A DNA stretch of 27,529 bases from positions 1 through 27,529 of IMG/VR virus record IMGVR_UViG_3300042691_015649; one strand, 5' to 3'. Source of the stretch: a virus. The notes under the pieces are model-generated. The model ran no database searches. It saw only the letters and a program-made list of their open reading frames with translations, and was not told the DNA's origin. This document shows positions 1,858 through 27,529 of this stretch, one piece after another (positions within the stretch are counted from its first letter, which is position 1; every line of letters starts with the position of its first letter). A program made the translations under genes and the position numbers.

Positions 1858-4800
1858 TTATCTTCTCAGCGATCCTCCAATTCGTTTTTCGTCGTTGATG
1901 ACTTGCAGCACCGCATCTTTGATCTGGCGAGCAAGTTGTTGACGGTTTGCAGACGCATCTTGTGAACCTTCTTGAGTGGTTTGACCAGATGGTGCTACAT
2001 TGATTGTGATATTTCCAGCAGCACTAGAATCAGAAACCTTAATCAGCTCATCAAGTTTTGCCAAAAGTTTTTCATTGAGTTCTTTGCTTGTTTCTTCTGA
2101 AGTGATGGAAGTTCCACCAGCATTCATGGATTGAAGATTTGGTGCGCCGATGCTTTGAACGGCAGAGCGATTCATTACAAACTCTCCACCAGAAAGCATC
2201 GCTGGAACTGTGTCAATGCCAGAAGTAGAGGGAATCATGCCACCAATCGCCTTGAATAATGGCGCAACTGCTCTTATCCGCGAACTGTTTACTTGTCGAT
2301 TGGTTTCTATGATGTCCTGTAGCTCTTGATTAGATCTATTTTTCATTAGAAACGATGCTCTTTCTGGAGGCATTTTTAATTCATTTGTTAATGTTTCATA
2401 AACAGCCCTTCTTCTGCTCAATTCTATATCAGCCAATGAAAGATTAGATTCTGGAAGATCAGGAAATCTCACTTGCCTTTTGTCAGCCTCACTCATTTTG
2501 CTCGCTGCTCCTCTAGACATCGAAGCATTTTGTCTAGTAGTCGAAAAACGCCCAAGTTCTGGAATAATCGTCGCTCTTTTTGCTCCAGAAAAATCCAATG
2601 CATCTATTCCACCAATATAACCAGCGAATTTAGGATCAGACTGCATTAGTGAAATTAGTTGCTTATCATTTGATATTTGCGATAGTTTAAATTGATTGGC
2701 TGCACCAGTAAAATTACCCGTTAAACCTTTTCCAACACCACTAAACAAATTATTAAGACCGCCAACTTGTTGACCAAGAACTTTTCCACCAGTAAAAATA
2801 CCTTTTGCTCCAGCCAATAAAGATTGACCTATTGTTGCCCCACCAGCTTTAGCTGCTCCAAATGCAGCTTTAGCCCCAGCTCCCGCAGCTCCAAGGACTG
2901 GACCTAACGCAGCGCTCGCAGCCAGCATGATAAGTTGATTTCTAAAGGCTTTCTTTTGTGCTTTTTCTTGTTTTTTCGCTTCTTTTTCAGCATTATACTG
3001 TTGCAGATATAAATCAAACGCTTGTCCTTTGGCTGATTGAGTTGCTTCGAACATTGGAGAATTTCTCATTCCAGAAACAGAAAGTTGAGAACTCTCTGGT
3101 TCAAGAGAGATTGCTTGGTAGCCTGACTCGTTTATGATTTGATCAAATACTCCAGATGTGCCACTTTGTGTAGCGAAATCCAAAAGGTTTCTTTTTCCGC
3201 TGATTGCACCTTGACCAAAAGTTCCTGGGGTATAGAAGTTTCCTTGTGGACCTCTTTGCACCGTTCCACCTTTAGCATATCCAGAGAGCGTACCATTATT
3301 GATGGCTTCTAAGAATTGTGGACCATATTTTGCGACAGCTCTCTTATTGACAACATATTCGCCGCCCATAAGCATTGCTGGAACATCGTCTTTAGAGCCA
3401 GAGCCACCAGTTACTTTGCCGCCAGAAGCAAACATGTTAGAAAAGAATGCTGCTAATCCACCGCTTGGTGCGCCACCACCAGATGGAACGCTTCCACCAA
3501 CAAGCTTGTCAACCAAGTTGCTCATCATTCTTTGATTGATCATTTTAACGAATTCATAAGCAGCTGAGCGCAGACCATCTTTAAGATCTGTTGTTCCTTC
3601 TATAGCTCCCATGATTCCTTCAATCATGTTGTTTTTAAATTGAACAGAGCCATCGACAATTGCTTGATTGATGTTTAATGCTCTTTCTTCATCGGTTTTG
3701 GTATATTCTTCGGCAAAGAGTTGTCCAAGACCTTTGTTTTGGCGCTGTCTAGCTATTCTAGCTGCTTCAGCTGGAGCTTGACCACTTTGTTGTCTTAATG
3801 TTTCAATATCGTAATTACCTTGAAGAATTTCTTTTCCAGATATTGAGGTAAGTTGTTGTAGCTTGATGTCTTCGATTTTTTGATCAATGATTTGAGAAGA
3901 ATCAAGCAGTGAGCGTCTAAACATTTCTAAAGCGTTAATAACAGGAGGAATAGCTCCAGCCGTTTCTCTATCGGCTTTCGCCGCTGCTTTAGCAGCTTCA
4001 CTTGAAACATCAAATTGTTCAAACATTTTATTCATGTTTTGAATGAATTTATTTAAATCTTCTGTTTTTTGTTTTTCATCTCCTGGAGATGTTAAGATAA
4101 CAGTTTCAGCGAGATTCTTCAATTCTTCTTTGGTTGTAGCTTGATTAATTTCTTGATTAAATTTCTTCCTATTTTCTGGAGTTATTAATTTATTTGCTTG
4201 GATCAATTCTTCACGCAATTGAGTAATAATTTTTTCTTTTTCCAAACCCTGCTCTAAAGCAACGGTATTCTCCTTAATTGCAGCGATTTGTTGGTCAATT
4301 TGTCGAACTTGTGAATCTGACTTTCCAAGCTTCGAAGACTCCAATGCTCTTATTTGCGCTGCATCAGCATTAATAGATCGAGTAGTTGCAATTTCACTAC
4401 GGAAAGACTGAGCCTCTAGCGCTCTTTTTGAAGCTTGGCTAATCAAATCAAGTTGACGAGCTTGTTCTTTATATTCGCCTGTTTGTTGTTGAGTTAATGT
4501 TAAATTGTCTTTTTTAATTTTATTCTCATCAAACAATTTATCCAATGTTATCTTTAGTGCATTTTTTTGTTGTTCATTTAATCCTGAATTTTGCTCCAAC
4601 AATTGACTTGTCTCTTGAAGAAGCGAATTTATTACTTCTCTTTTTTGGAGATCTTCTGCGCTTAAACCATTAAGTTTTTCCTGTAATTTTTGAGCGTCTT
4701 CAGATGCTGCTGTAATTTTTTTAGCTTGTGATATTTGCTCTTGTATTAAGTTCGCGGCTCCATCTTGAAGCTCGCGATCAATTTCACGTAGTGCGATTTG

Positions 4801-7800
4801 ATCTTGTATATTACGCAAAGATGTTTCACTCAAGTTTCCAAGTTCTTGCCCTTTTAATAATTGTTGTCCCAATATGTCATTTTCAAAACTGCGGGCTTTA
4901 GCAATAGAAAGAGCTATAGCATTTTTTAATTTGTCTTGAACTATACTTGTTTTGGTTTGTTCAATAGCTTCTTTTTCCTCAGTTGCTTTTTGCTCGTCAG
5001 CTGATGATAATTGTTTTTTTATATTTTCTATATTAGCTTGTTTTATTTTAGGATCAGAAATTGATTTACTAAAAAATTCATTCAAAGTTTCATCTACTCC
5101 AAAACTAGAAGCAATATCTTCTTGAGATAATTTAGATTTCAAAAAATCAATAGCTTGCGATGGAGATGTTTCTGAAGATATTTTACTTATACGATCAGTA
5201 ATAAATTTTAATAGCTCTTCTCCTTCTGATTCTGTAACTTCTAAACCAGATAAAGCAAACTCTTGAAACTTGTTGTATATTTCATCATAATTCACTCCAA
5301 CTCCTAGACCTTGAGCAATTCCCGATTTTATATCTTCATTTAGCTGCATAGAAAGCCCACCTATACTTGCGGTAGCCAATGTTCTTCCTTCCTTGTCTCT
5401 TATTTTTCTAGCCCCCGAAATTAAATCATCTGCTCTTTTTTCTACAGCTCTTTTTTGAACTGGATTTAATGTATTAAGATTAACTGCTGCTTTTCCAGCT
5501 GCTTCTGCTAATTTTAAATTTGCTTCTGCGGCCTTTTGCAAGCCAATATTATTAGAATCTTGATATTTTGCAAATTCATTTAAAGCGGTATAAGCTCCAA
5601 CGGCAACAGCTCCATAGATACCTAATTTACTAGCAAATTTGCCAAATCCTTTTTCTGCTCCACCAAGAGCTTGTGATAAGCCCTGCCCAGCAAAAACGAC
5701 CGTAGATGCTGAGCTTGCTACCTCTCCAAAACTATTAGCAAATTTTGCAAATCCATTAGTTGCCCCTTCGGTCGCTCCAGTCAAAGCTGTCATAGCTCCT
5801 TGAACCGCAAAAATAACCCCAAGCATATCCCTGCCTCCTCCAGAATTTTGAGATGCTTTTTTATTTTCAGCCCTATCTTGCTTTAATTGTTGAGCTTTTT
5901 GGTTTCTGGCAGATATTTCTTTTTCATAAGCATCAATTAATCCTGCGCCTTGAATTTGTAATCGCTTTTGTTGCGATGCATTTAGTGTCAAGCCATTTGC
6001 AAAATTTTGCATTGCGCTCATTGCTTGAGTATAGCTCATATTATTTTTACGCATTTCAAGAGCTATTCTCTTTAATTCGTCATTAAATTTTGAAACTTCA
6101 GAACTACCTCTGATCGAAGAAGATGGAACTGTAACTTGTCCTATTTGCGGTGCGTAATTCGGTACAAATCCACCAGCAGCACCATACATCATTGGATTTG
6201 CTCCTTCTCTTCTGGCTCGGCTAATACCTTGAAATCCACCAGCTGGTTCATCACGACGATTAGCAACCATCAAACCCATAGGGTTTGCCGCATTCTTCAG
6301 CGCAGGACTCTTATCAATATAAATTTGTGAAGCAGGGACACCAGCAGCCATTTCGCGACCTACTGCTGCTTGGAGTGGATTGGCGAAGTTGGGAAGGAAG
6401 CCGCCAGCAGCATTATCTCTTTTATATTTTTCAATCTGTGCCAATAGCTGTTGATAATATTTTGGATATGCAGCTTGCATTTCTGGATCTGCTATCAGAG
6501 CTTTTTCAAAAGCTTGTCTGTGTTTGTTTTTTGCTGGTCTCTTCAACTCCGCTGTAAAAAACTTAGCGTCAGACGGTTTCATTTTAGTTAAACCAGAAGC
6601 CTCTACTGAATCTACCACACCATCTCCCAAATATTGATCAATCAACAGCTTGATAGCAGCTTGTCCCAATCCTTTGGCAATTTGCAACGCTGTAAATTTA
6701 CCCCCACGATTAGATGGTCCTCCAGCAAAATTAGGAATAAAACCACCAGCAGCTGTTGCTGTTTGTTGAGATTCTTTTTGTAAAATTGATCCAATTATTG
6801 ATCTTGCTGGATCAGAAACCTTAGTTAATCCAGCATCAATTATTCCTATTCTAGCACCTTTAGAAGCCATTTGCTTCAATACAGAGAGCGCTCCAGTAGC
6901 ATCCTGTGGATAATTTTTTAATTCTCTTATTTCTTTTGCGGCACTTTCATTAACAGTGTAATTAGAGCCATGCAAATCTCCAATTGACAAGCCTTGAGTT
7001 TTTAATGCGTTAAACAGGACAGTCGATCCAAACATTCTTGCGACATCTCCGCCCACTGCATTTCGTGCTAATTGGTCAGAAACAACCTCCTTGCGAATAG
7101 CTTTTTTGCGGATAGAATCTTGAAATTTCGAAAGATTTTTTGGTCCAAAGACAGCTGGTATTTTTACATACTTGCTTAAATATTCCGCGACCAACCACTC
7201 AGCCTGAGCCGCTTGACTAAAGCCATCTTTGACAAATTTCTTAACTCCAACTTCGACACCATCCTTGTTACCCAATCTATAAAAAGTTCCTTGAAGACCG
7301 CTCCCAATTTCTCTTGATTTAGAAACAAAATTAGGGATGAAGCCACCAGCAGCATTCGCGGCTTTTTGTGCTTTAGAAAGATCAAATGCTCCTTGGCTCC
7401 GCAAAGATTTAACTGCGCTTGAACCATATTCAGAATCATTAAAAATCTTTTTAATAATACCCTGAACTTGTTTTGACGAACTAAAGTTTTTCTCACCGCC
7501 TCTTTTTGCCTCACCTCTTTTAGCATTTACGCCAAATACTTTTCGCAATGCTTCTGGATTTTGGAAATCAAATGGCCTGTTCTGTTCGCCAGAACCGAAC
7601 AAAGATTCTAAATTTGCAAAACTATTAAGAGCCACCTTTCCAGCAGCTTCAAACAGGTCGCCTTGCGCAGCTGGTGGCAGTAGCTGTTGCTTTCTGGAAG
7701 CATCCAAGGATTGCAATTTGCTAGAAAATTCTCCACCGCTTGCTGGATCAAAAGTTTCTCCATAAAGTCTATACGCAAGTTTTACAATACCATCCGAAAA

Positions 7801-10800
7801 TAATTCATTAACATCTGCTCGTAAAGACTTCAAATCTCTACCGCTTGGTGTATTGGATGTTTTAATACCAGCCAGTTTGATGTATTTGTTTTTATCAATA
7901 GGCGGCGACTTATCTTGATTAAAGAATGGTATCTCGCCAATTTGCATTGACGTATCTAATGAACCTTGACCTTTGCCAAATCTTGGCGATACCAGAAGGA
8001 TTCCTCCAAGAGCATCAGCGTTAAGATTGAAGAATCCTTTTTCTTCTATCTTTTTTTCTTTAATTTGTTGATTAGCGACAGCTTTCGATTGTGTTCTGGA
8101 TAGAACATTTTTGATTTGAGATCCATAGCCGCCAGTTCCATCTGGAAATTGATAAAAGTCTTTTACTGGGTCTTTATATTTTTGAATTTCGTCAGCATAT
8201 TTTCTCACTGTTTCGGCATTAAACTTTGGCGCGAAGTTTGGAATAAAACCTCCAGCAGCATTTACCAATCTTTCTGAAAAATTCAAACTTGTATTTAACT
8301 TGGTGTCAGATGGAATTATTAATCCAACCTTTCCAGTTATACGATCAGTCTTCTTATTTACTATAGAAGCTTTTGACAAAAAAGAGTTTGCATATTTTCT
8401 AACAATTTCATGAAGATTTTGAGACTTTTTAGTTTTAACCTCATTATCTCCGCTTAAATCAAAAAATGCATTTCTATCATTAATTTTTTGACCAGTTAGT
8501 TTTGATGCATCTATTTCTCCAAGAACTCCTTTAACTTTACCTTGCAGACTTAACCATGTTTTTTGATTAGCTTTTGTGTCATTTGGATCTAAAGTCGCAT
8601 TTTTAATTTGATTTTCAATTCCTTGAACAGCGGAAGGATCTGCTCCACTACTCAACCATTGTTTTTTGTAAAAATCTAAAGCAGCAACATCAATTTCTTT
8701 GCCAGTACTTATTCCAAATTTTTTAAAAATATAAGGGACTTTTATCTCATTTTTTGAAAAATCTGTTTTGCCAAGTATGCTATTAGCTCTTTTATTGTAT
8801 GATGAAATATTGTCATCTTGCCTAATGACATTAATAATGCTTTTGAATTGATCATACGGGTCTGCGTTAATCGCATTCTTTAGTTTTGCATAAGGCTTTT
8901 TAGAAAAAGATTCTGCTGTAGTGAAACCTGTTTCAATAATTTCTTTTTTATTTTTATTCGCAAAATTTGGAACCAATCCTCCAGCCGCATTGATTTTCTT
9001 TGCTCCCGATGGCAATCCCATCGACTGCACCATGCGTCTATTAAACACAGCAGACCCACCACTTCCATTAAAATTCGGTACAATATACTCACCAGTATGA
9101 GCGACCATCGTTCCCTTTTTACCACCACCGAAATTAAAGTTTGGCATCACGACTGGCTTATCACCTGCGCGAGCGCCACCTACTCCTTGTCTGATTGCTT
9201 TGCTTTCTTTGGCAACTGCTGGCATATAGCCGTCAGCACTATTACCAACGCGCAAACCAGAACCAGTTGCTCTAGCTCCGACATTATAAAGTGGTGCTGC
9301 TAATCCAGAGGAAATATTCGCACTTCTACGAAGAAGAGCTTCTTGTTCAACTAATGCGCCAGTAATCACTCTCAGCTGTGCAGCTCTATTACCCTCCAGC
9401 GCAAACAACTGCTGTTGAAGGTTTACGTTCTTTGCTAAAATTTGAGAGATTGCTCCCTCGACATTCTGAACTTCTTTAGCTGCCTTACCAATTCCAAAGA
9501 AAGCTTTCAAGCTAGCAAATCCAAACTGCACCAAATCTTTTGAAAGTTTAAGGATAATAGCTCCGAATAAAGCCAATCCAGGTCCAGCTAAAAAGCTTCC
9601 AAGACCCTTGACAAGTCCACGAACCAAATTGCCCAATCCACTTTCTTCGCCTAAAACTTTTTGAATTCCTTCGAGCAAGTTATTGAAAAATCCCAAGACA
9701 TTCTTTAAGCTGTCTGTTACGCCAATTTCACCAAGTTTCGCGCCAAGCTGTTCAGCATTTACGGCAACTTTGTTCAATAAAGCGGCGAGCGTTTGATTTA
9801 AGATGATATTTTTTTGGTATGCAGAGTTACCAGCTTCACCTGCGACTTTTAACGCTCCAGCCGTCACAGACGCTTCAGACGATAAATCTTTCAATGCCGA
9901 CAAAAGTTTATCCAACTGGAAAACGCCGCCAAGTTTTTCGGCAATGTCAGCTTGCTCAATTTGAGAAAAGTTATTTAATTGTCCAGCAAGATTTTCTAAA
10001 ATTCGTAGCGCTGGCAATACATTTCCTTGAAGGTCGGTAACTGCAACGCCCATGTTCTGCAAATCAGAAAGAACGTCTTTTCTTTGGATTCTCGCGAAAA
10101 TTGTTTTAAAGCTGTTGCCGATAACAGCGCCACCTCTAGCAGTTGTCTGCTGAACTGCCGTAATAACTGCCGCCAATTCATCAAATGAAACTCCTGCTTG
10201 TTGAGCAACAGAAGCAGAACGCTTAACGCCTTCGATAATATCTCTTTCCGATACTGCGTATTTTTGAGAAACAGCAACAACTTTATTAAGAATCTCTGCT
10301 GTTGTGATTCCAGACTTCTGGAACGAGTTGAATGCAGCAGTCAAACCCTCAACAGACTGCGCAGCATCCAAACCAGAAAGCCGCGAAAGAATCAGAGCGT
10401 CATTCAATCGAGCGAGTGTATCTTCTGCACTCAAACCTTGACGAGCTAATTCCAATGCACCACTAGCAACTTCATCAAACGATTTGCCAGTATTTTTTGC
10501 TACATTGAAAATTTGCTGTCCAAACTTATCAAGTTCAGCACCGCTTTTATTTAAAACAGAATTGATTTCTGTAAGACTTTTTTCTACTTTGATCGTGCTG
10601 GTAAGAAGTCCAGACATAGCTTTGGAAACACCAGCGATAATACCAGCAGAAGCTCCGAACGCCAAAACACGGGCATTTGCTGCTGCCATGGATTTAGTGA
10701 ACTCATCTGCTTGACCAGTAATTCTACCCAATGGTTGGCTCAACGCATTAATTTGCCTTGAATTCGTCCCCAAATTGATTTGCGCGGAGCTGCCAACACG

Positions 10801-10869
10801 CTTCATTGCAGCGGCAATACTTTGCTCCAATCCGACTTGAGTAACTTGTATTTGAATAGACTGTGACAT
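1858..10869 (-). CDS. Giant tail tape measure protein with embedded cargo-like domains
   Basis: 3003 residues. The tape measure fills the tail tube, sets tail length and is ejected during infection. Residues about 70-290 match the TP901-type phage tail tape measure core (ARVLAFGASAGIIAGVSKAM and SFDEVASGALELARQGLS). Hydrophobic stretches occur near 430-460 and in the Ala/Gly-rich stretch near 2650-2720. Residues about 1576-2450 are Gln/Glu/Lys-rich and largely helical or coiled. Six close copies of an AAGGFIPNFA-type decapeptide start at residues 627, 870, 1172, 1372, 1486 and 1563 and delimit unrelated segments, among them a kinase-like segment and two PD-(D/E)XK-like ones, listed separately. 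A second repeat (VPAML.GGE.V.N) lies near 2496 and 2888, with a relative near 590. The start is supported by AAAGGAG two bases before ATG, the clearest Shine-Dalgarno-like site in the window. At 0.15 nm per residue the full length would give about 450 nm, less if the cargo is globular. Confidence 0.93.
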   Translation of the reverse strand: MSQSIQIQVTQVGLEQSIAAAMKRVGSSAQINLGTNSRQINALSQPLGRITGQADEFTKSMAAANARVLAFGASAGIIAGVSKAMSGLLTSTIKVEKSLTEINSVLNKSGAELDKFGQQIFNVAKNTGKSFDEVASGALELARQGLSAEDTLARLNDALILSRLSGLDAAQSVEGLTAAFNSFQKSGITTAEILNKVVAVSQKYAVSERDIIEGVKRSASVAQQAGVSFDELAAVITAVQQTTARGGAVIGNSFKTIFARIQRKDVLSDLQNMGVAVTDLQGNVLPALRILENLAGQLNNFSQIEQADIAEKLGGVFQLDKLLSALKDLSSEASVTAGALKVAGEAGNSAYQKNIILNQTLAALLNKVAVNAEQLGAKLGEIGVTDSLKNVLGFFNNLLEGIQKVLGEESGLGNLVRGLVKGLGSFLAGPGLALFGAIILKLSKDLVQFGFASLKAFFGIGKAAKEVQNVEGAISQILAKNVNLQQQLFALEGNRAAQLRVITGALVEQEALLRRSANISSGLAAPLYNVGARATGSGLRVGNSADGYMPAVAKESKAIRQGVGGARAGDKPVVMPNFNFGGGKKGTMVAHTGEYIVPNFNGSGGSAVFNRRMVQSMGLPSGAKKINAAGGLVPNFANKNKKEIIETGFTTAESFSKKPYAKLKNAINADPYDQFKSIINVIRQDDNISSYNKRANSILGKTDFSKNEIKVPYIFKKFGISTGKEIDVAALDFYKKQWLSSGADPSAVQGIENQIKNATLDPNDTKANQKTWLSLQGKVKGVLGEIDASKLTGQKINDRNAFFDLSGDNEVKTKKSQNLHEIVRKYANSFLSKASIVNKKTDRITGKVGLIIPSDTKLNTSLNFSERLVNAAGGFIPNFAPKFNAETVRKYADEIQKYKDPVKDFYQFPDGTGGYGSQIKNVLSRTQSKAVANQQIKEKKIEEKGFFNLNADALGGILLVSPRFGKGQGSLDTSMQIGEIPFFNQDKSPPIDKNKYIKLAGIKTSNTPSGRDLKSLRADVNELFSDGIVKLAYRLYGETFDPASGGEFSSKLQSLDASRKQQLLPPAAQGDLFEAAGKVALNSFANLESLFGSGEQNRPFDFQNPEALRKVFGVNAKRGEAKRGGEKNFSSSKQVQGIIKKIFNDSEYGSSAVKSLRSQGAFDLSKAQKAANAAGGFIPNFVSKSREIGSGLQGTFYRLGNKDGVEVGVKKFVKDGFSQAAQAEWLVAEYLSKYVKIPAVFGPKNLSKFQDSIRKKAIRKEVVSDQLARNAVGGDVARMFGSTVLFNALKTQGLSIGDLHGSNYTVNESAAKEIRELKNYPQDATGALSVLKQMASKGARIGIIDAGLTKVSDPARSIIGSILQKESQQTATAAGGFIPNFAGGPSNRGGKFTALQIAKGLGQAAIKLLIDQYLGDGVVDSVEASGLTKMKPSDAKFFTAELKRPAKNKHRQAFEKALIADPEMQAAYPKYYQQLLAQIEKYKRDNAAGGFLPNFANPLQAAVGREMAAGVPASQIYIDKSPALKNAANPMGLMVANRRDEPAGGFQGISRARREGANPMMYGAAGGFVPNYAPQIGQVTVPSSSIRGSSEVSKFNDELKRIALEMRKNNMSYTQAMSAMQNFANGLTLNASQQKRLQIQGAGLIDAYEKEISARNQKAQQLKQDRAENKKASQNSGGGRDMLGVIFAVQGAMTALTGATEGATNGFAKFANSFGEVASSASTVVFAGQGLSQALGGAEKGFGKFASKLGIYGAVAVGAYTALNEFAKYQDSNNIGLQKAAEANLKLAEAAGKAAVNLNTLNPVQKRAVEKRADDLISGARKIRDKEGRTLATASIGGLSMQLNEDIKSGIAQGLGVGVNYDEIYNKFQEFALSGLEVTESEGEELLKFITDRISKISSETSPSQAIDFLKSKLSQEDIASSFGVDETLNEFFSKSISDPKIKQANIENIKKQLSSADEQKATEEKEAIEQTKTSIVQDKLKNAIALSIAKARSFENDILGQQLLKGQELGNLSETSLRNIQDQIALREIDRELQDGAANLIQEQISQAKKITAASEDAQKLQEKLNGLSAEDLQKREVINSLLQETSQLLEQNSGLNEQQKNALKITLDKLFDENKIKKDNLTLTQQQTGEYKEQARQLDLISQASKRALEAQSFRSEIATTRSINADAAQIRALESSKLGKSDSQVRQIDQQIAAIKENTVALEQGLEKEKIITQLREELIQANKLITPENRKKFNQEINQATTKEELKNLAETVILTSPGDEKQKTEDLNKFIQNMNKMFEQFDVSSEAAKAAAKADRETAGAIPPVINALEMFRRSLLDSSQIIDQKIEDIKLQQLTSISGKEILQGNYDIETLRQQSGQAPAEAARIARQRQNKGLGQLFAEEYTKTDEERALNINQAIVDGSVQFKNNMIEGIMGAIEGTTDLKDGLRSAAYEFVKMINQRMMSNLVDKLVGGSVPSGGGAPSGGLAAFFSNMFASGGKVTGGSGSKDDVPAMLMGGEYVVNKRAVAKYGPQFLEAINNGTLSGYAKGGTVQRGPQGNFYTPGTFGQGAISGKRNLLDFATQSGTSGVFDQIINESGYQAISLEPESSQLSVSGMRNSPMFEATQSAKGQAFDLYLQQYNAEKEAKKQEKAQKKAFRNQLIMLAASAALGPVLGAAGAGAKAAFGAAKAGGATIGQSLLAGAKGIFTGGKVLGQQVGGLNNLFSGVGKGLTGNFTGAANQFKLSQISNDKQLISLMQSDPKFAGYIGGIDALDFSGAKRATIIPELGRFSTTRQNASMSRGAASKMSEADKRQVRFPDLPESNLSLADIELSRRRAVYETLTNELKMPPERASFLMKNRSNQELQDIIETNRQVNSSRIRAVAPLFKAIGGMIPSTSGIDTVPAMLSGGEFVMNRSAVQSIGAPNLQSMNAGGTSITSEETSKELNEKLLAKLDELIKVSDSSAAGNITINVAPSGQTTQEGSQDASANRQQLARQIKDAVLQVINDEKRIGGSLRR
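6800..7325 (-). other. Protein-kinase-like domain in tape measure (residues about 1183-1357)
   Basis: The segment between the third and fourth decapeptide repeats carries the ordered hallmarks of a kinase fold. A glycine-rich loop REIGSGLQGTFYRLG (Gly1189-Gly1194) is followed by a strand VEVGVKKF with Lys1210 in the place of the VAIK lysine. A catalytic-loop-like SIGDLHGSNYTV has Asp1298 and Asn1303. A DFG-like IGIIDAGLTKV has Asp1345 but Ala in place of Phe. The length (about 170 residues) is short for a eukaryotic-type kinase and closer to compact RIO, ABC1 or aminoglycoside-kinase-like forms. All metal and ATP residues appear present, so activity is possible but unproven. Confidence 0.6.
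7495..7680 (-). other. Second PD-(D/E)XK-like segment in tape measure (residues about 1064-1125)
   Basis: Between the second and third decapeptide repeats, QGDLFEAAGKVAL places Glu1074 in a helix. RPFDFQNPE gives Asp1101 after a strand, and RGEAKRG gives Glu1120-Ala-Lys1122. The order helix Glu, strand Asp, ExK again fits the PD-(D/E)XK nuclease plan, with an Asp to Glu distance of 19 residues. The match is weaker than for the preceding segment because the ExK strand is very basic and glycine-flanked. Confidence 0.35.
8425..8535 (-). other. PD-(D/E)XK-like segment in tape measure (residues about 779-815)
   Basis: Between the first and second decapeptide repeats the protein reads GVLGEIDASKL, then FFDLSGDNEVKTKK. 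Glu785 lies in a predicted helix, Asp804 follows a hydrophobic strand, and Glu810-Val-Lys812 forms an ExK. This spacing is the usual layout of the PD-(D/E)XK nuclease fold. It is a motif reading only; the flanking residues are not recognisable. Confidence 0.4.
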
Positions 10870-23751: not shown

Positions 23752-26700
23752 TTAATCAACAAACATTGGGACAAATGTAGCTTGAACAGATGCCTCTGGT
23801 GTCGCCATCATGTCGAAGTAGATGTTCATTAACCAATTGCCAAGAACCAAAGCTGAATAAGAGTCTTTTCTTGCCTTGTCAGCGTTACGCTGTTTCTTGA
23901 GGTTATATGGTAAATCAAATGATTGGGAGCCATTTGCTGTAGTTGATACTTGTATAAGTGCGCATTGGACTTTCGTGGCATCAATTGTGTCTTTCAAATG
24001 CTCAATTAGGTCGATTTGTTTGGCGTATGAGTCGCCTTCATCATTGTATCGCGAGAATGTAATCTCATCAATAGGAATCGCCGCTGACTTTTGCCGCGAA
24101 TAATCGTCATCCAAAGCTGTTCCTGCAAACCAAATCTTTTTATGATCGAAAGCAGATTGAAGCATCTCATTTGCTGATCGAATCCACGATGAACTTGGCT
24201 TTCTAAGTATGCATATCTTCTTTGATTCTACATTGTATTGATTTCGGGCAACGCGCAAATCTGTATTGTAGCTTTGGGGGTCATCAAAATCAACGTCCAT
24301 ACATTGTATTTGGATTCCAGCTTTCTTAAAGATTTCACTTTCGTTGCAGGAGTTGAGAAACTGAACGCCACCGTTATAGTCACCCACAATCATACGAATA
24401 TTAAAGTGGGTATATAAATAATGGAAGTAAACAATATGCTTTTTCAAGTTGGCTCCTGCCAAAGCATACGAATGTACTATAGTTCCACTGCGTTTGTCAG
24501 CATTTAACTTGATAACGTGCATTGCGAAGTCGTCGGAGCCTTCGCTCTCTGACCACGATGGGTCAAATGACAGTATGTATTCGCTGCTTTTATCGCCTAC
24601 TACCTCTACTGATTGACCTTCACCATCAGGAACGGTGCAAGCTGCCATTTTGCTAACCTTAAAGTAACCAGAGCTATCATCTGTGAAGATTGATCCAAAC
24701 TCTCTTTCAAACTGCGCCTCACTCATTGTCGCTTTAGACTGATCTAAAAGGTTTTGATCGTAAAGTTGTTTCGGGGCGCAATCATAGCTCAAGTGCATAA
24801 TCACTCGATGAGCATTATCTTGTTTAGATGGATTGAGAATAAGGTTTTCGTATTGTTGGTAAAGCTTGTATAGATACTCAAACTTATAAGAAGCAGAAGA
24901 AAGACCAATAATCTTGTTATGTGGCCATTTGTGACGTTCTTCTTCAGTCATCTTACCAGCAGCAATCATTTTTGTTTCAAGATCGTAGATCTTTTGACGC
25001 TCTGTAGGATTCTCCACAACTGCCAAGAAAGGAAGAATAACTTCATTAATAATTTTCTCTGGCATCAAAAGAAGCTCGTCAATAATCATTCGCTGGAAAC
25101 GAAAGCCCCGAAGCTTTTCTCCATCGCCAAGAGGCAGAGCAATGATTTTACTACGCCCAATTTCCATAACCCACTGGTCATTGGACTTGCTGACTCTAGT
25201 AATACATTGTGATAAGAATGCCGCTTTTGGACTCTTCGCAATCTCTTCGATCTTGTTAAAGATCATTCGACTCTGACGGAAAGACTTGGATATGATGCCA
25301 ATATAAACACCCTGGTTTAAGATAGCATCCATTGCCGCGAAAATACCCGTAGTGAAAGACTTGGACAGACCCCTCGAATTATGATGCACAATACCGTTGC
25401 CGATATAACACTCTTCATTTTCTACAGTAATATCCACTGATCTTACTTGGCAAGGCGTAATAGTTTTTACCACAGAAAACGAAACCCGCTCTTCTTTAAT
25501 TGAATCAATAATATATTTAGTATCTTCTGACAAACCTTGGAGATTATCCAATTCATTTTGAGAGAAACCTATTCCCCATTGCCCCTTTTTCCCACAGAGC
25601 TTTTCACGTGAACCTTCTTTTTTTAGTAATTGTCCAAATCTTGGTATCAGTTTATTTTGGTAGTTTCTTGAGCTAGATCTATCAATGATTTTTTGAAGAT
25701 TGGATTTTTTATGAGAAACAATAAAGTCTATTTCTGCTTGAAATTTCTTTAAGCTAGAAACGTCATTTGTTAATACTAGATCATAATAAGGCACATCATT
25801 GTGTTGCCCAGAAAGCCTCAAATTAGATTCCACTCCCAAGTTATTTAAAAGCATTTTTACTTGACGCAATAATTGAAGAGATGTGTTTTTTAATCCTACT
25901 TTACTATTGTTTGGTTGAAAAGATGCATATCCATCCGCATCAAATAATCCACCAATTAAAGCGCATAGATTTCCTTTTTCTGTGGCTAAGATTTGATCGC
26001 AGATTAGTTTATCTTTTGATTTTAGAGATTTATCCCAGCCTATTGATTCTAATGCTTTAACCAATTCTCGATTAAATACCGAATACTCGTAGAAATTTAA
26101 ATTAGCGTTGCGTTGACGAGCATACATTTTAAAATCATTAGCTTGTGTAAATTTCAAGATCGCTTCTTGAATTTCATAATTTTCCGAGCAATAGTGAACT
26201 CCATCTTGATTGAGATAACCATCGCCCAAAACATATCCCAGCCAGTAGAATAAGTGCTGCTTGTTTTTGAAATTAAAATCTTTAAAAATATCCTGGTTTC
26301 CCCAGACATCTGTTCCCAATTTTACTGGAACAATGTCTCCTTCTTTAATATTTTGAATCTCTTCAAATTGAAACTGAAAATTTCTGAAAACAAGAGTTTT
26401 ATGTCCAATTTTAGCCTTAAATGAATCGCCAGATTTCAGGGTTATTTCTAGTCCATCTTCCAGTGGGTTAATTCTTTTGTCTGTGACTAAATTGAGCTGC
26501 TCGCGAGAACGAACCATTTCACCAACTTGAATATCTTTAATTTTTTTGAACCCATTTTCAGTTAGTACATATTCATCTTCCGCAAGACACCATATCCCCA
26601 AAAAGTAATCTGTTTCCATCATAGCCTTAATTGCCATGTGCTGGAATGGAAACAATGAAATGCCTGAAATAAGCTCAGAAGTGAATGATGGATTCTCGCG

Positions 26701-26823
26701 CAAGAACTTATACAAAAGAACTTTCGCCTTTTCTTCTTCAAGGAATCCTTTTGTGTCTAGGATTTCTTGGTTTACATTTTCGAATTTCTTATGTAAGATT
26801 TGATGTCCTTTTTCCCACGCCAT
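23752..26823 (-). CDS. terL: Terminase large subunit, interrupted by an intein
   Basis: 1023 residues: exteins 1-78 and 483-1023 (619 residues after splicing) and an intein at 79-482. After splicing the P-loop region reads LGIWSRGLSKSFTTG, an adenine-motif-like LFPFQHMAIKAMM lies before it, Walker B is FQRMIIDELLL (near residue 580) and the coupling motif is GLSSASYKF. The nuclease half has acidic residues in ILSFDPSWSES (near 753), MIVGDYNGG (near 814) and a later DDDYS/IPIDEITF region (near 900-915). It cuts and pumps DNA into the prohead through the portal encoded next. The P-loop has SKS where GKS or GKT is usual. It starts two bases after the ERCC4 nuclease stop, and the leader lacks a Shine-Dalgarno site. 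Confidence 0.93.
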   Translation of the reverse strand: MAWEKGHQILHKKFENVNQEILDTKGFLEEEKAKVLLYKFLRENPSFTSELISGISLFPFQHMAIKAMMETDYFLGIWCLAEDEYVLTENGFKKIKDIQVGEMVRSREQLNLVTDKRINPLEDGLEITLKSGDSFKAKIGHKTLVFRNFQFQFEEIQNIKEGDIVPVKLGTDVWGNQDIFKDFNFKNKQHLFYWLGYVLGDGYLNQDGVHYCSENYEIQEAILKFTQANDFKMYARQRNANLNFYEYSVFNRELVKALESIGWDKSLKSKDKLICDQILATEKGNLCALIGGLFDADGYASFQPNNSKVGLKNTSLQLLRQVKMLLNNLGVESNLRLSGQHNDVPYYDLVLTNDVSSLKKFQAEIDFIVSHKKSNLQKIIDRSSSRNYQNKLIPRFGQLLKKEGSREKLCGKKGQWGIGFSQNELDNLQGLSEDTKYIIDSIKEERVSFSVVKTITPCQVRSVDITVENEECYIGNGIVHHNSRGLSKSFTTGIFAAMDAILNQGVYIGIISKSFRQSRMIFNKIEEIAKSPKAAFLSQCITRVSKSNDQWVMEIGRSKIIALPLGDGEKLRGFRFQRMIIDELLLMPEKIINEVILPFLAVVENPTERQKIYDLETKMIAAGKMTEEERHKWPHNKIIGLSSASYKFEYLYKLYQQYENLILNPSKQDNAHRVIMHLSYDCAPKQLYDQNLLDQSKATMSEAQFEREFGSIFTDDSSGYFKVSKMAACTVPDGEGQSVEVVGDKSSEYILSFDPSWSESEGSDDFAMHVIKLNADKRSGTIVHSYALAGANLKKHIVYFHYLYTHFNIRMIVGDYNGGVQFLNSCNESEIFKKAGIQIQCMDVDFDDPQSYNTDLRVARNQYNVESKKICILRKPSSSWIRSANEMLQSAFDHKKIWFAGTALDDDYSRQKSAAIPIDEITFSRYNDEGDSYAKQIDLIEHLKDTIDATKVQCALIQVSTTANGSQSFDLPYNLKKQRNADKARKDSYSALVLGNWLMNIYFDMMATPEASVQATFVPMFVD
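25378..26589 (-). mobile_element. Intein with LAGLIDADG homing endonuclease in the terminase
   Basis: 404 residues, from Cys79 (CLAEDEYVLTENGFKKI, splicing block A) to Asn482 in GNGIVHHN (block G with His481), followed by Ser483 as the +1 nucleophile. Block B has His141 in KIGHKTLV. Two LAGLIDADG motifs, WLGYVLGDGYL (Asp201) and LIGGLFDADGY (Asp297), mark a DOD-family endonuclease. Insertion is directly before the P-loop, a conserved active-site position as usual for inteins. Departures from consensus: block B has Lys instead of Thr three residues before His141, and block F reads VENEECY with Glu where His is common. Key cleavage residues are present, so splicing is likely. The endonuclease part is more AT-rich than the exteins. 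Confidence 0.92.
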
Positions 26824-26825
26824 AT

Positions 26826-27529
26826 TTATTTAATTTCAAAGTAGTTCATTTCCCCAGCGTCTAAAAAGTATTGAATATCGACGTTCCACATTTTAGGTCC
26901 AAGCATAAGGAGTTTTGGTATTAGTATTTGACTGCTGCTTCTGTTCTTTGCGAACACAAATTGGCAACAGTCACGGAAATCTCTTTGTAGTTCTTTCATG
27001 TTGTGAAAGATATAGTCTAGGTTGAATCGTTTCGGGGCGTACTTATTAATCTCGCGCATCTTATGTAGATCGCTCTCAATCACAATAAATAGGAAGCACT
27101 CCGCTTGCCTACAACGTTGAAGCTCTCTGACGAATCTTTTATACTCCGCTGACAAAGTACTACAAAAGTCAGCAAACGACTTCCTATCCACATACGTATA
27201 CTGAAAGTTCTCTCCTGTGACAGCATAGTCGCCAACATCTAGCTTGAGTGGCGCAGAGTAACGGAACTTGAGTGGTTGCTGCTCTCTCGTATCAATCAAA
27301 ATCTTTACATCTCTGTAATCGTTGTGGAATTCTTGTGGCAAGTTTGAACCGAACATCGGTTTAACGCCACATTCATCGCACACTTTTTTATAGCTGCCAA
27401 AGATACGCTTGTATACTCTAATTGGCGGCAAGTCTGATGTGAATAATTCTGTCGAGCAGGGACCATAATCTAGTTCCTTTTTTTCTATGCGCTTTTTAAG
27501 CAATAAAAGAATATATGCCCCAACTTCTT
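26826..27529 (-). CDS. ERCC4-type nuclease with N-terminal DNA-binding-like module (runs off right edge)
   Basis: At least 234 residues. Residues around KILIDTREQQPLKF, LDVGDYAV and YVDRKSFADF form the ERCC4/XPF nuclease signature (Asp, GD, and the (E/D)RK core, here DRK). CSTLSAEYKRFVRELQRC follows as expected. Upstream, a segment with PPIRVYKRIFGSYKKVCDECGVKP resembles the short FGSW...GL DNA-binding modules found in phage homing endonucleases and related proteins. The frame is open to the right edge: codons before 27503 read EVGAYILLLL with no stop and no ATG. The TTG at 27503 is therefore not a convincing start and the N-terminus probably lies outside. Stand-alone ERCC4 nucleases act on branched or forked DNA. 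Two bases separate it from the terminase, so it may process replicated DNA before packaging; that role is inference. Confidence 0.75.
   Translation of the reverse strand, partial: EVGAYILLLLKKRIEKKELDYGPCSTELFTSDLPPIRVYKRIFGSYKKVCDECGVKPMFGSNLPQEFHNDYRDVKILIDTREQQPLKFRYSAPLKLDVGDYAVTGENFQYTYVDRKSFADFCSTLSAEYKRFVRELQRCRQAECFLFIVIESDLHKMREINKYAPKRFNLDYIFHNMKELQRDFRDCCQFVFAKNRSSSQILIPKLLMLGPKMWNVDIQYFLDAGEMNYFEIK

Follow-up and report, generated by a model that had tools for sequence, protein, structure and literature searches.

A phage tape measure protein with a central cassette of exchangeable modules bounded by a conserved peptide: a probable carrier of effector domains

Layout of the tape measure gene

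The stretch of DNA analysed here, referred to as the window, comprises 27,529 nucleotides (positions 1 to 27,529 of the viral record IMGVR_UViG_3300042691_015649 in IMG/VR), and its largest gene encodes a tape measure protein (TMP). The middle of this protein consists of unrelated globular domains in series, of which one or more are enzyme-like, and the borders between the domains are marked by copies of a decapeptide. The protein is a TMP of the TP901-1/PhageMin_Tail type, as it contains the core domain (Pfam PhageMin_Tail at residues 122–315, 9.7e-31; NCBIfam tape_meas_TP901, TIGR01760, at residues 79–415, 1.4e-37), is helix-rich, and is encoded in a tail cluster with a minor tail protein gene downstream. 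Several PHROG TMP families match it as well. The parts of the gene, in window coordinates, are:

1858..10869, minus strand: TMP gene, 3003 amino acids, no cysteine, 4 histidines (Pfam, NCBIfam, PHROG, composition)
8989..10869, minus strand: TMP N-terminal core, residues 1–627, family-conserved
8959..8988, minus strand: repeat 1, AAGGLVPNFA, residues 628–637, cassette opener
8260..8958, minus strand: module S1, residues 638–870, nuclease-like, with a PD-(D/E)XK signature GE...D...EVKT; six-member family
8230..8259, minus strand: repeat 2, AAGGFIPNFA, residues 871–880
7354..8229, minus strand: module S2, residues 881–1172, FE-FDF-DAK family, nuclease-like signature
7324..7353, minus strand: repeat 3, AAGGFIPNFV, residues 1173–1182
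6754..7323, minus strand: module S3, residues 1183–1372, predicted minimal kinase domain of RIO/Bud32/ABC1 type (motifs, AlphaFold2 model, Foldseek)
6724..6753, minus strand: repeat 4, AAGGFIPNFA, residues 1373–1382
6412..6723, minus strand: module S4, residues 1383–1486, small domain of no recognised type, shared only with L002/L062
6382..6411, minus strand: repeat 5, AAGGFLPNFA, residues 1487–1496
6181..6381, minus strand: domain S5, residues 1497–1563, IYID...NPMGLMVANRRDEP, conserved cassette-closing domain with 68 relatives in IMG/VR
6151..6180, minus strand: repeat 6, AAGGFVPNYA, residues 1564–1573, cassette closer
1858..6150, minus strand: TMP C-terminal part, residues 1574–3003, helical and tape-like

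The N-terminal core has a single hydrophobic segment, near residue 422 (hydropathy), and the C-terminal part carries two GGE[YF]V(V/M)N motifs as well as, around residue 2646, a further stretch of hydrophobic residues. The compositions of the repeat-bounded segments are unlike those of these flanks and unlike one another, in agreement with the original prediction, made from the window sequence, that the region is not tape-like. No match to the cassette was obtained by tblastn in 50,697 phage records; matches to the N-terminal core and the terminase were confined to distant phages, the majority of them phages of Firmicutes, with identities of about 23–28%. The C-terminal part of the TMP of one relative, L002 (L002:6827-15979), contains an SLT transglycosylase domain (residues 2315–2417; Pfam 2.5e-6), for which Pfam gave no match in the window TMP.

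The decapeptide repeats

Six repeats of the type AAGGFIPNFA, cutting the protein into segments of 77 to 302 residues, had been predicted, and all six are found, at residues 628–1573. They share the form AAGG[FL][IVL]PN[FY][AV], and their start-to-start spacings are 243, 302, 200, 114, and 77 residues. Beyond what the window by itself could show, most of the relatives described below carry such repeats too, the first of them always near residue 630. The core motif x-G-[FYL]-[IVL]-P-N-[FY] has 254 copies in 65 related TMPs, compared with a mean of 0 after shuffling, and the repeats are therefore not a product of chance. Among single mismatches to the motif, none falls on the proline and five on the asparagine, all of them to S. 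A repeat scan of 84,980 species genomes returned one match, the bacterial-bin contig L061 from a Lake Erken metagenome. The peptide was not found in print in the open-licence literature, so an earlier description elsewhere is possible.

Codon sharing between the repeats is 0.41 in the window TMP against 0.45 predicted by codon usage (standard deviation 0.06), and 0.49 against 0.47 predicted in 58 TMPs (p = 0.10). Since the same codons are used no more often than codon usage predicts, selection on the repeats acts on the peptide; the repeats are conserved as peptide rather than as DNA, and are positioned at the module borders. This bears on the proposal, part of the original prediction, that they are points of recombination. 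DNA recombination sites, or remnants of mobile modules with the protein motif as a by-product, would account for the breaks in homology at the repeats (see below), but synonymous codons that are no more alike than expected, together with a proline that never changes and an asparagine that almost never does, make this explanation very unlikely. Recombination sites at the DNA level were rejected as largely refuted by the codon test.

A recognised linker, serving packing, threading or cleavage, is favoured instead, because a passive linker would need neither an unvarying proline nor a near-unvarying asparagine and aromatic residue. If the use were cleavage, the repeats would be protease sites that free the modules after or during entry. 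The tightly conserved G-[FY]-[IV]-P-N-F core at every module border, which exceeds what a passive linker needs, is consistent with such sites. However, neither a protease nor a cleavage product is known for this system, S5 is likewise bordered by the motif, and virions of phage P23-45 contain the RNA polymerase domain within a TMP of full size (PMC10770324), so that release by proteolysis appears somewhat unlikely.

Predicted domains of the cassette

Enzyme-like motifs had been predicted for some of the segments, and S3 carries a complete kinase set: a glycine loop, the predicted catalytic lysine in VGVKKF, the catalytic-loop motif DLHGSNY..N, and IDAG with the predicted metal-binding aspartate. 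The AlphaFold2 model of S3 has a predicted local distance difference test score (pLDDT) of 88.7 and a predicted template modelling score of 0.84. Its top Foldseek match in the PDB is Kae1-Bud32 (3enh; 3.2e-5, probability 1.00), followed by Rio2 and the ABC1-like Rv3197, and the 50 best matches are kinases almost throughout; a PDB profile search with S3 found nothing. Eight S3 family members keep the G.G, the VGVKKF lysine, E42, IRKE, D.HG.NY..N, and ID.G, and the relatives are 32–64% identical to the window copy. The catalytic-loop histidine of S3, H1300, is one of only four histidines in the 3003-residue TMP. On the strength of motifs and model, S3 is confidently predicted to adopt a minimal protein-kinase-like fold. 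With about 190 residues it is short, and reminiscent of the polyvalent-protein kinases described without a C-terminal subdomain (PMC5512222).

S1 and S2 are tentatively described as nuclease-like from the presence of the E...D...(D/E)xK residues. Invariant positions in the six members of the S1 family are G147 and E148, D167, and E173, V174, and K175; in the 31 sequences of the S2 family, only G190, E194, D221, and K242 are invariant. Neither Pfam nor a PDB profile search gave a match for S1, and the PDB profile search with S2 found nothing. The two modules carry the signature of PD-(D/E)XK nucleases but are not assigned to them, because no structural match of the S2 model (pLDDT 87.3) showed the restriction-endonuclease-like core fold. 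The signature occurs in at least seven module families; the Nc and Nd families have the residues in the same order, and the Nb family has the D...(E)xK part.

Modelling gave S2 and S3 each a predicted fold of its own, and the outcome that the original prediction had named as speaking against itself, one continuous fold across the region, was thus not found. Domain S5, of about 67 residues, sits between the last two repeats in most TMPs, so that comparison with the relatives adds a conserved domain between the last repeat pair to what could be predicted from the window. Scans of the window modules with Pfam, PHROGs, NCBIfam, and PADLOC gave nothing significant, and no Pfam polyvalent domain is present in the window TMP.

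Related cassettes and module exchange

Relatives were collected from IMG/VR by scans for AAGGF(V/I/M)PNFA (58 stretches) and for the S5 domain (68 loci), and by queries with S3 (L002/L062 and L063). After removal of duplicates the set contains 82 TMPs, all on metagenome contigs of uncultured phages. They share an alignable N-terminal core, a first repeat at about residue 630 where the gene start is present, and the closing S5. Between the first repeat and S5 lie 1–7 exchangeable modules that together span 214 to 2002 residues, and 65 complete cassettes display 40 orders of module families. S3 is located between different neighbours in at least seven TMPs, for instance N-S3-S4 in the window, h12-S3-S4 in L062, N-S3-f15 in L063, and P-S3 in L067. 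Among the modules of the relatives, only three gained profile support: a GNAT module (Pfam 1.7e-4), and the L061 modules ART-PolyVal (1.2e-5, below the curated cut-off) and DUF7178 (Pfam 1.4e-17). P-loop, zincin or zinc-peptidase-like (HEASH), HAD-like (DWDGT), nucleotidyltransferase-like, further kinase-like, and ADP-ribosyltransferase (ART)-like modules were recognised by eye and are given as leads. Single-sequence PDB searches with the modules of three relatives found nothing. L064 has two repeat-flanked S5 domains (residues 1215–1292 and 2003–2080), an arrangement suggestive of the tandem addition of another cassette, and L104 also has two S5 copies.

A module of S2 type is present in 58 of the 65 cassettes, and in 24 of these it is the sole module. 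This would be compatible with a mixed arrangement in which the S2-type module has a core TMP function, such as DNA handling or processing of the TMP at entry, and the other modules are optional cargo. Against it, the S2-type module is missing from seven cassettes, among them those of L103 and L109, where ART- and kinase-like modules are seen by eye instead; elsewhere it is replaced by distant subfamilies, and in several TMPs it is doubled to two copies. We regard the mixed arrangement as possible, if less than probable. The cassettes of L103 (residues 639–846) and L109 (residues 639–1067) start with the ART-like module (YRGM...TTTS...E.EVS, by eye).

In pairwise DNA comparisons of the TMP genes, identity breaks off and returns at the repeats. 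Between L074 and L081, identity is 98.0% up to residue 1226, with a repeat at 1219; after residue 1226 they contain unrelated modules of about 96 and 162 residues, and identity returns at the repeats at 1323 and 1389, respectively, with 92%. The difference between L105 and L106 is a single, cleanly delimited block of about 330 residues that lies between two repeats and is present in one of them only. The window TMP matches L065 at residues 5–640 (84%), 874–1182 (81%), and 1487–1575 (94%), and all of these matches end at repeats. In the non-matching parts, S1 is confronted with another nuclease-like module, and S3 and S4 with another kinase-like module. Over all pairs, 29.8% of the internal ends of homology are within 10 residues of a repeat, compared with 5.8% expected at random positions, and the share rises to 46% among pairs that are 60% or more identical. 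As each pair was counted in both directions and related pairs were included, the values represent an effect size and not a formal probability.

The joins between modules are in frame and lie at the linkers. Related phages gain and lose modules or exchange one for another in this way, and the second outcome named against the original prediction, the same segments in the same order in related phages, does not hold. The pairwise comparisons provide several candidate cases of recent domain exchange in TMPs. As the relatives are all metagenome contigs, chimeric assemblies could in principle give the appearance of exchange, but in-frame joins located at repeats are seen again and again, in many pairs that come from different samples, and S3 is found in the varied contexts listed above, which renders this explanation extremely improbable.

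Cysteine content and selection

The cassettes contain 1 cysteine in 37,696 residues (window TMP and 65 related TMPs). Elsewhere in these TMPs the frequency is 0.05 per thousand, and in the other open reading frames of the window it is 6.5 per thousand. Among the proteins used for comparison (L131–L137), cysteine is absent from the P23-45 TMP with its RNA polymerase domain (5002 amino acids), the N4 virion RNA polymerase (3500 amino acids), lambda gpH, and the TMPs of Lactococcus phage AM9 and Bacillus phage Slash; the controls lambda gpJ, N4 160-kDa protein, and N4 gp68 have several. In our reading, the scarcity of cysteine reflects a constraint that packing in the tail, or passing through it, imposes on the modules as on the tape. 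Because short tail proteins can also be cysteine-free, the argument depends on the length of the protein and on the many unrelated modules. The composition suggests that the modules travel with the ejected TMP; this part of the original prediction thus receives indirect support, from a feature shared with proven or likely ejected proteins. Near-total absence of cysteine may also serve to mark long ejected proteins genome-wide.

The modules are under purifying selection, with ratios of nonsynonymous to synonymous substitution (dN/dS) of 0.03–0.34: 0.03–0.04 for S2, 0.15–0.20 for S3-type modules, and 0.34 for S1, where the N-terminal core has 0.07. Strong constraint on S2, its occurrence in most cassettes and a model without a known enzyme fold would suit modules that are structural or assembly parts of the tail, i.e., spacers, plugs of the tube lumen, or degenerate former enzymes that set length or stiffness. 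Such a function is unlikely, since conservation in the S1, S2, and S3 families is highest at the predicted catalytic residues, other modules match GNAT and ART-PolyVal profiles, and both the swaps between near-identical TMPs and the range of cassette lengths are ill-suited to a fixed structural task.

The tape measure protein as an effector carrier

Taken with the exchange at the repeats, the presence of unrelated domains in the cassette partly supports the original notion of the TMP as a cargo carrier, from which DNA-level recombination sites have to be removed. We consider it probable that the protein is a modular effector carrier, similar to polyvalent proteins, with exchangeable modules in one central cassette. 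In such a carrier, the N- and C-terminal parts would do the usual work of a tape measure. The central site, with the repeat near residue 630 at its start and S5 between its repeats at its end, would hold small globular domains linked by GGFIPNF peptides, in the window two putative nuclease-like domains (S1 and S2), the predicted minimal kinase S3, and the small domain S4. Being part of the TMP, the modules would be packed into the tail and exit together with the rest of the protein. Either whole or cut at the repeats, they would arrive at the inner membrane or in the cytoplasm and act early on host proteins, on host or competing DNA, or on defences, as polyvalent proteins may do. The repeats would be flexible, specifically recognised linkers for packing, threading or processing, and not DNA recombination sites.

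Several points weigh against this interpretation. The proposed effector role is read from the genes of an uncultured group. It is doubtful that folded domains could pass the tail tube, and unfolding of the modules must therefore be assumed. The S2 model has no Foldseek match at E ≤ 0.001 in the PDB or the viral database BFVD, and since it matched no solved fold, the nuclease assignment of S2 stays tentative and relies on the residue signature. The near-universal occurrence of the S2-type module (58/65) fits a core function as well as cargo, and the loci were picked via the repeat, S3 or S5, so that such frequencies hold only within this family. Finally, lambda gpV and the Reynauld major tail protein are cysteine-free and yet not ejected.

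A stronger version, in which G-[FY]-[IV]-P-N-F is an active delivery element, acting as a signal for threading, docking or cleavage, is put forward tentatively and is the less likely of the two. Together with a ban on cysteine, this element would allow many small domains to be loaded into the tail and passed on to the host, and would form an interchangeable code for effector delivery across a large group of uncultured phages. If the effector-carrier interpretation is correct, phage tails transport, in addition to DNA, a selection of enzymes built into the ruler protein, and polyvalent proteins are extended to siphophage tails. It would furthermore supply clear examples of TMPs exchanging domains, something that a large survey had been unable to confirm, and a catalogue of small cysteine-free kinases, nuclease-like domains, and transferase domains, presumably selected for the first minutes of infection. 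The repeat may decide what a tail can deliver, which makes it a testable handle.

Comparison with known systems

On leaving the tail, TMPs become the entry channel or a part of it (summarised in PMC10770324), and the lambda TMP is labelled during genome injection by TurboID fused to the inner-membrane protein ManZ (PMC13190303). The nearest concept to the cassette described here is that of the polyvalent proteins (Iyer et al. 2017, PMC5512222), in which unrelated enzyme domains such as kinases without a C-lobe, ARTs, GNATs, and peptidases are combined in one polypeptide thought to enter with the DNA, and for which cassette-like variability has been suggested. Possible shared elements are a candidate ART-PolyVal domain in a relative, below the curated cut-off, and the predicted minimal kinase S3. 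Unlike in the polyvalent proteins, the carrier is a TMP, and the modules occupy one internal site where they are separated by one peptide motif; the word "tape" does not occur in the text of PMC5512222. Of the at least two unrelated enzyme or effector domains that define a polyvalent protein, the window provides the predicted kinase fold of S3, and S1 and S2 may contribute nuclease-like domains, as suggested by their residue signature.

The nearest single example is gp96 of P23-45, a TMP fused to a virion RNA polymerase that works on the pre-early genes (Chaban et al. 2024, PMC10770324). Like the window protein with its predicted enzyme-like modules, it is a giant, cysteine-free TMP that includes an enzyme; the gp96 enzyme is carried in the virion and acts at the start of infection, as is proposed here for the modules. 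In gp96, however, one polymerase sits at the N-terminus, occurs in P23-45 and its close relatives, and is not part of a repeat-bounded exchangeable cassette. The Sle1-type effectors of actinobacterial contractile injection systems (PMC13277306) are TMP-related, have exchangeable domains, and are loaded in a tail-like particle, as proposed here, but they belong to a bacterial nanomachine, have a single C-terminal effector domain, and no internal repeats have been described for them. TMPs with peptidoglycan hydrolase domains, such as that of mycobacteriophage TM4 (PMC1796659) and the SLT-containing TMP of L002, likewise include an enzyme domain used during entry; they differ in having the cell wall as target and a single fixed domain instead of an internal string of unrelated modules. 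Domain shuffling is shared with the mosaic phage proteins surveyed in Nat Commun 2023 (PMC10684548), where a mosaic signal was seen in TMPs, but a genuine recent case could not be confirmed.

Neighbouring genes

The gene for the large terminase subunit (window 23752-26823, minus strand) is apparently split by an intein (Pfam Intein_splicing 1.1e-9) that includes a LAGLIDADG endonuclease (Pfam LAGLIDADG_3 4.5e-16). It is adjoined by a gene with an ERCC4-type nuclease domain (window 26826-27527, minus strand; Pfam 1.5e-7), which is cut by the end of the window.

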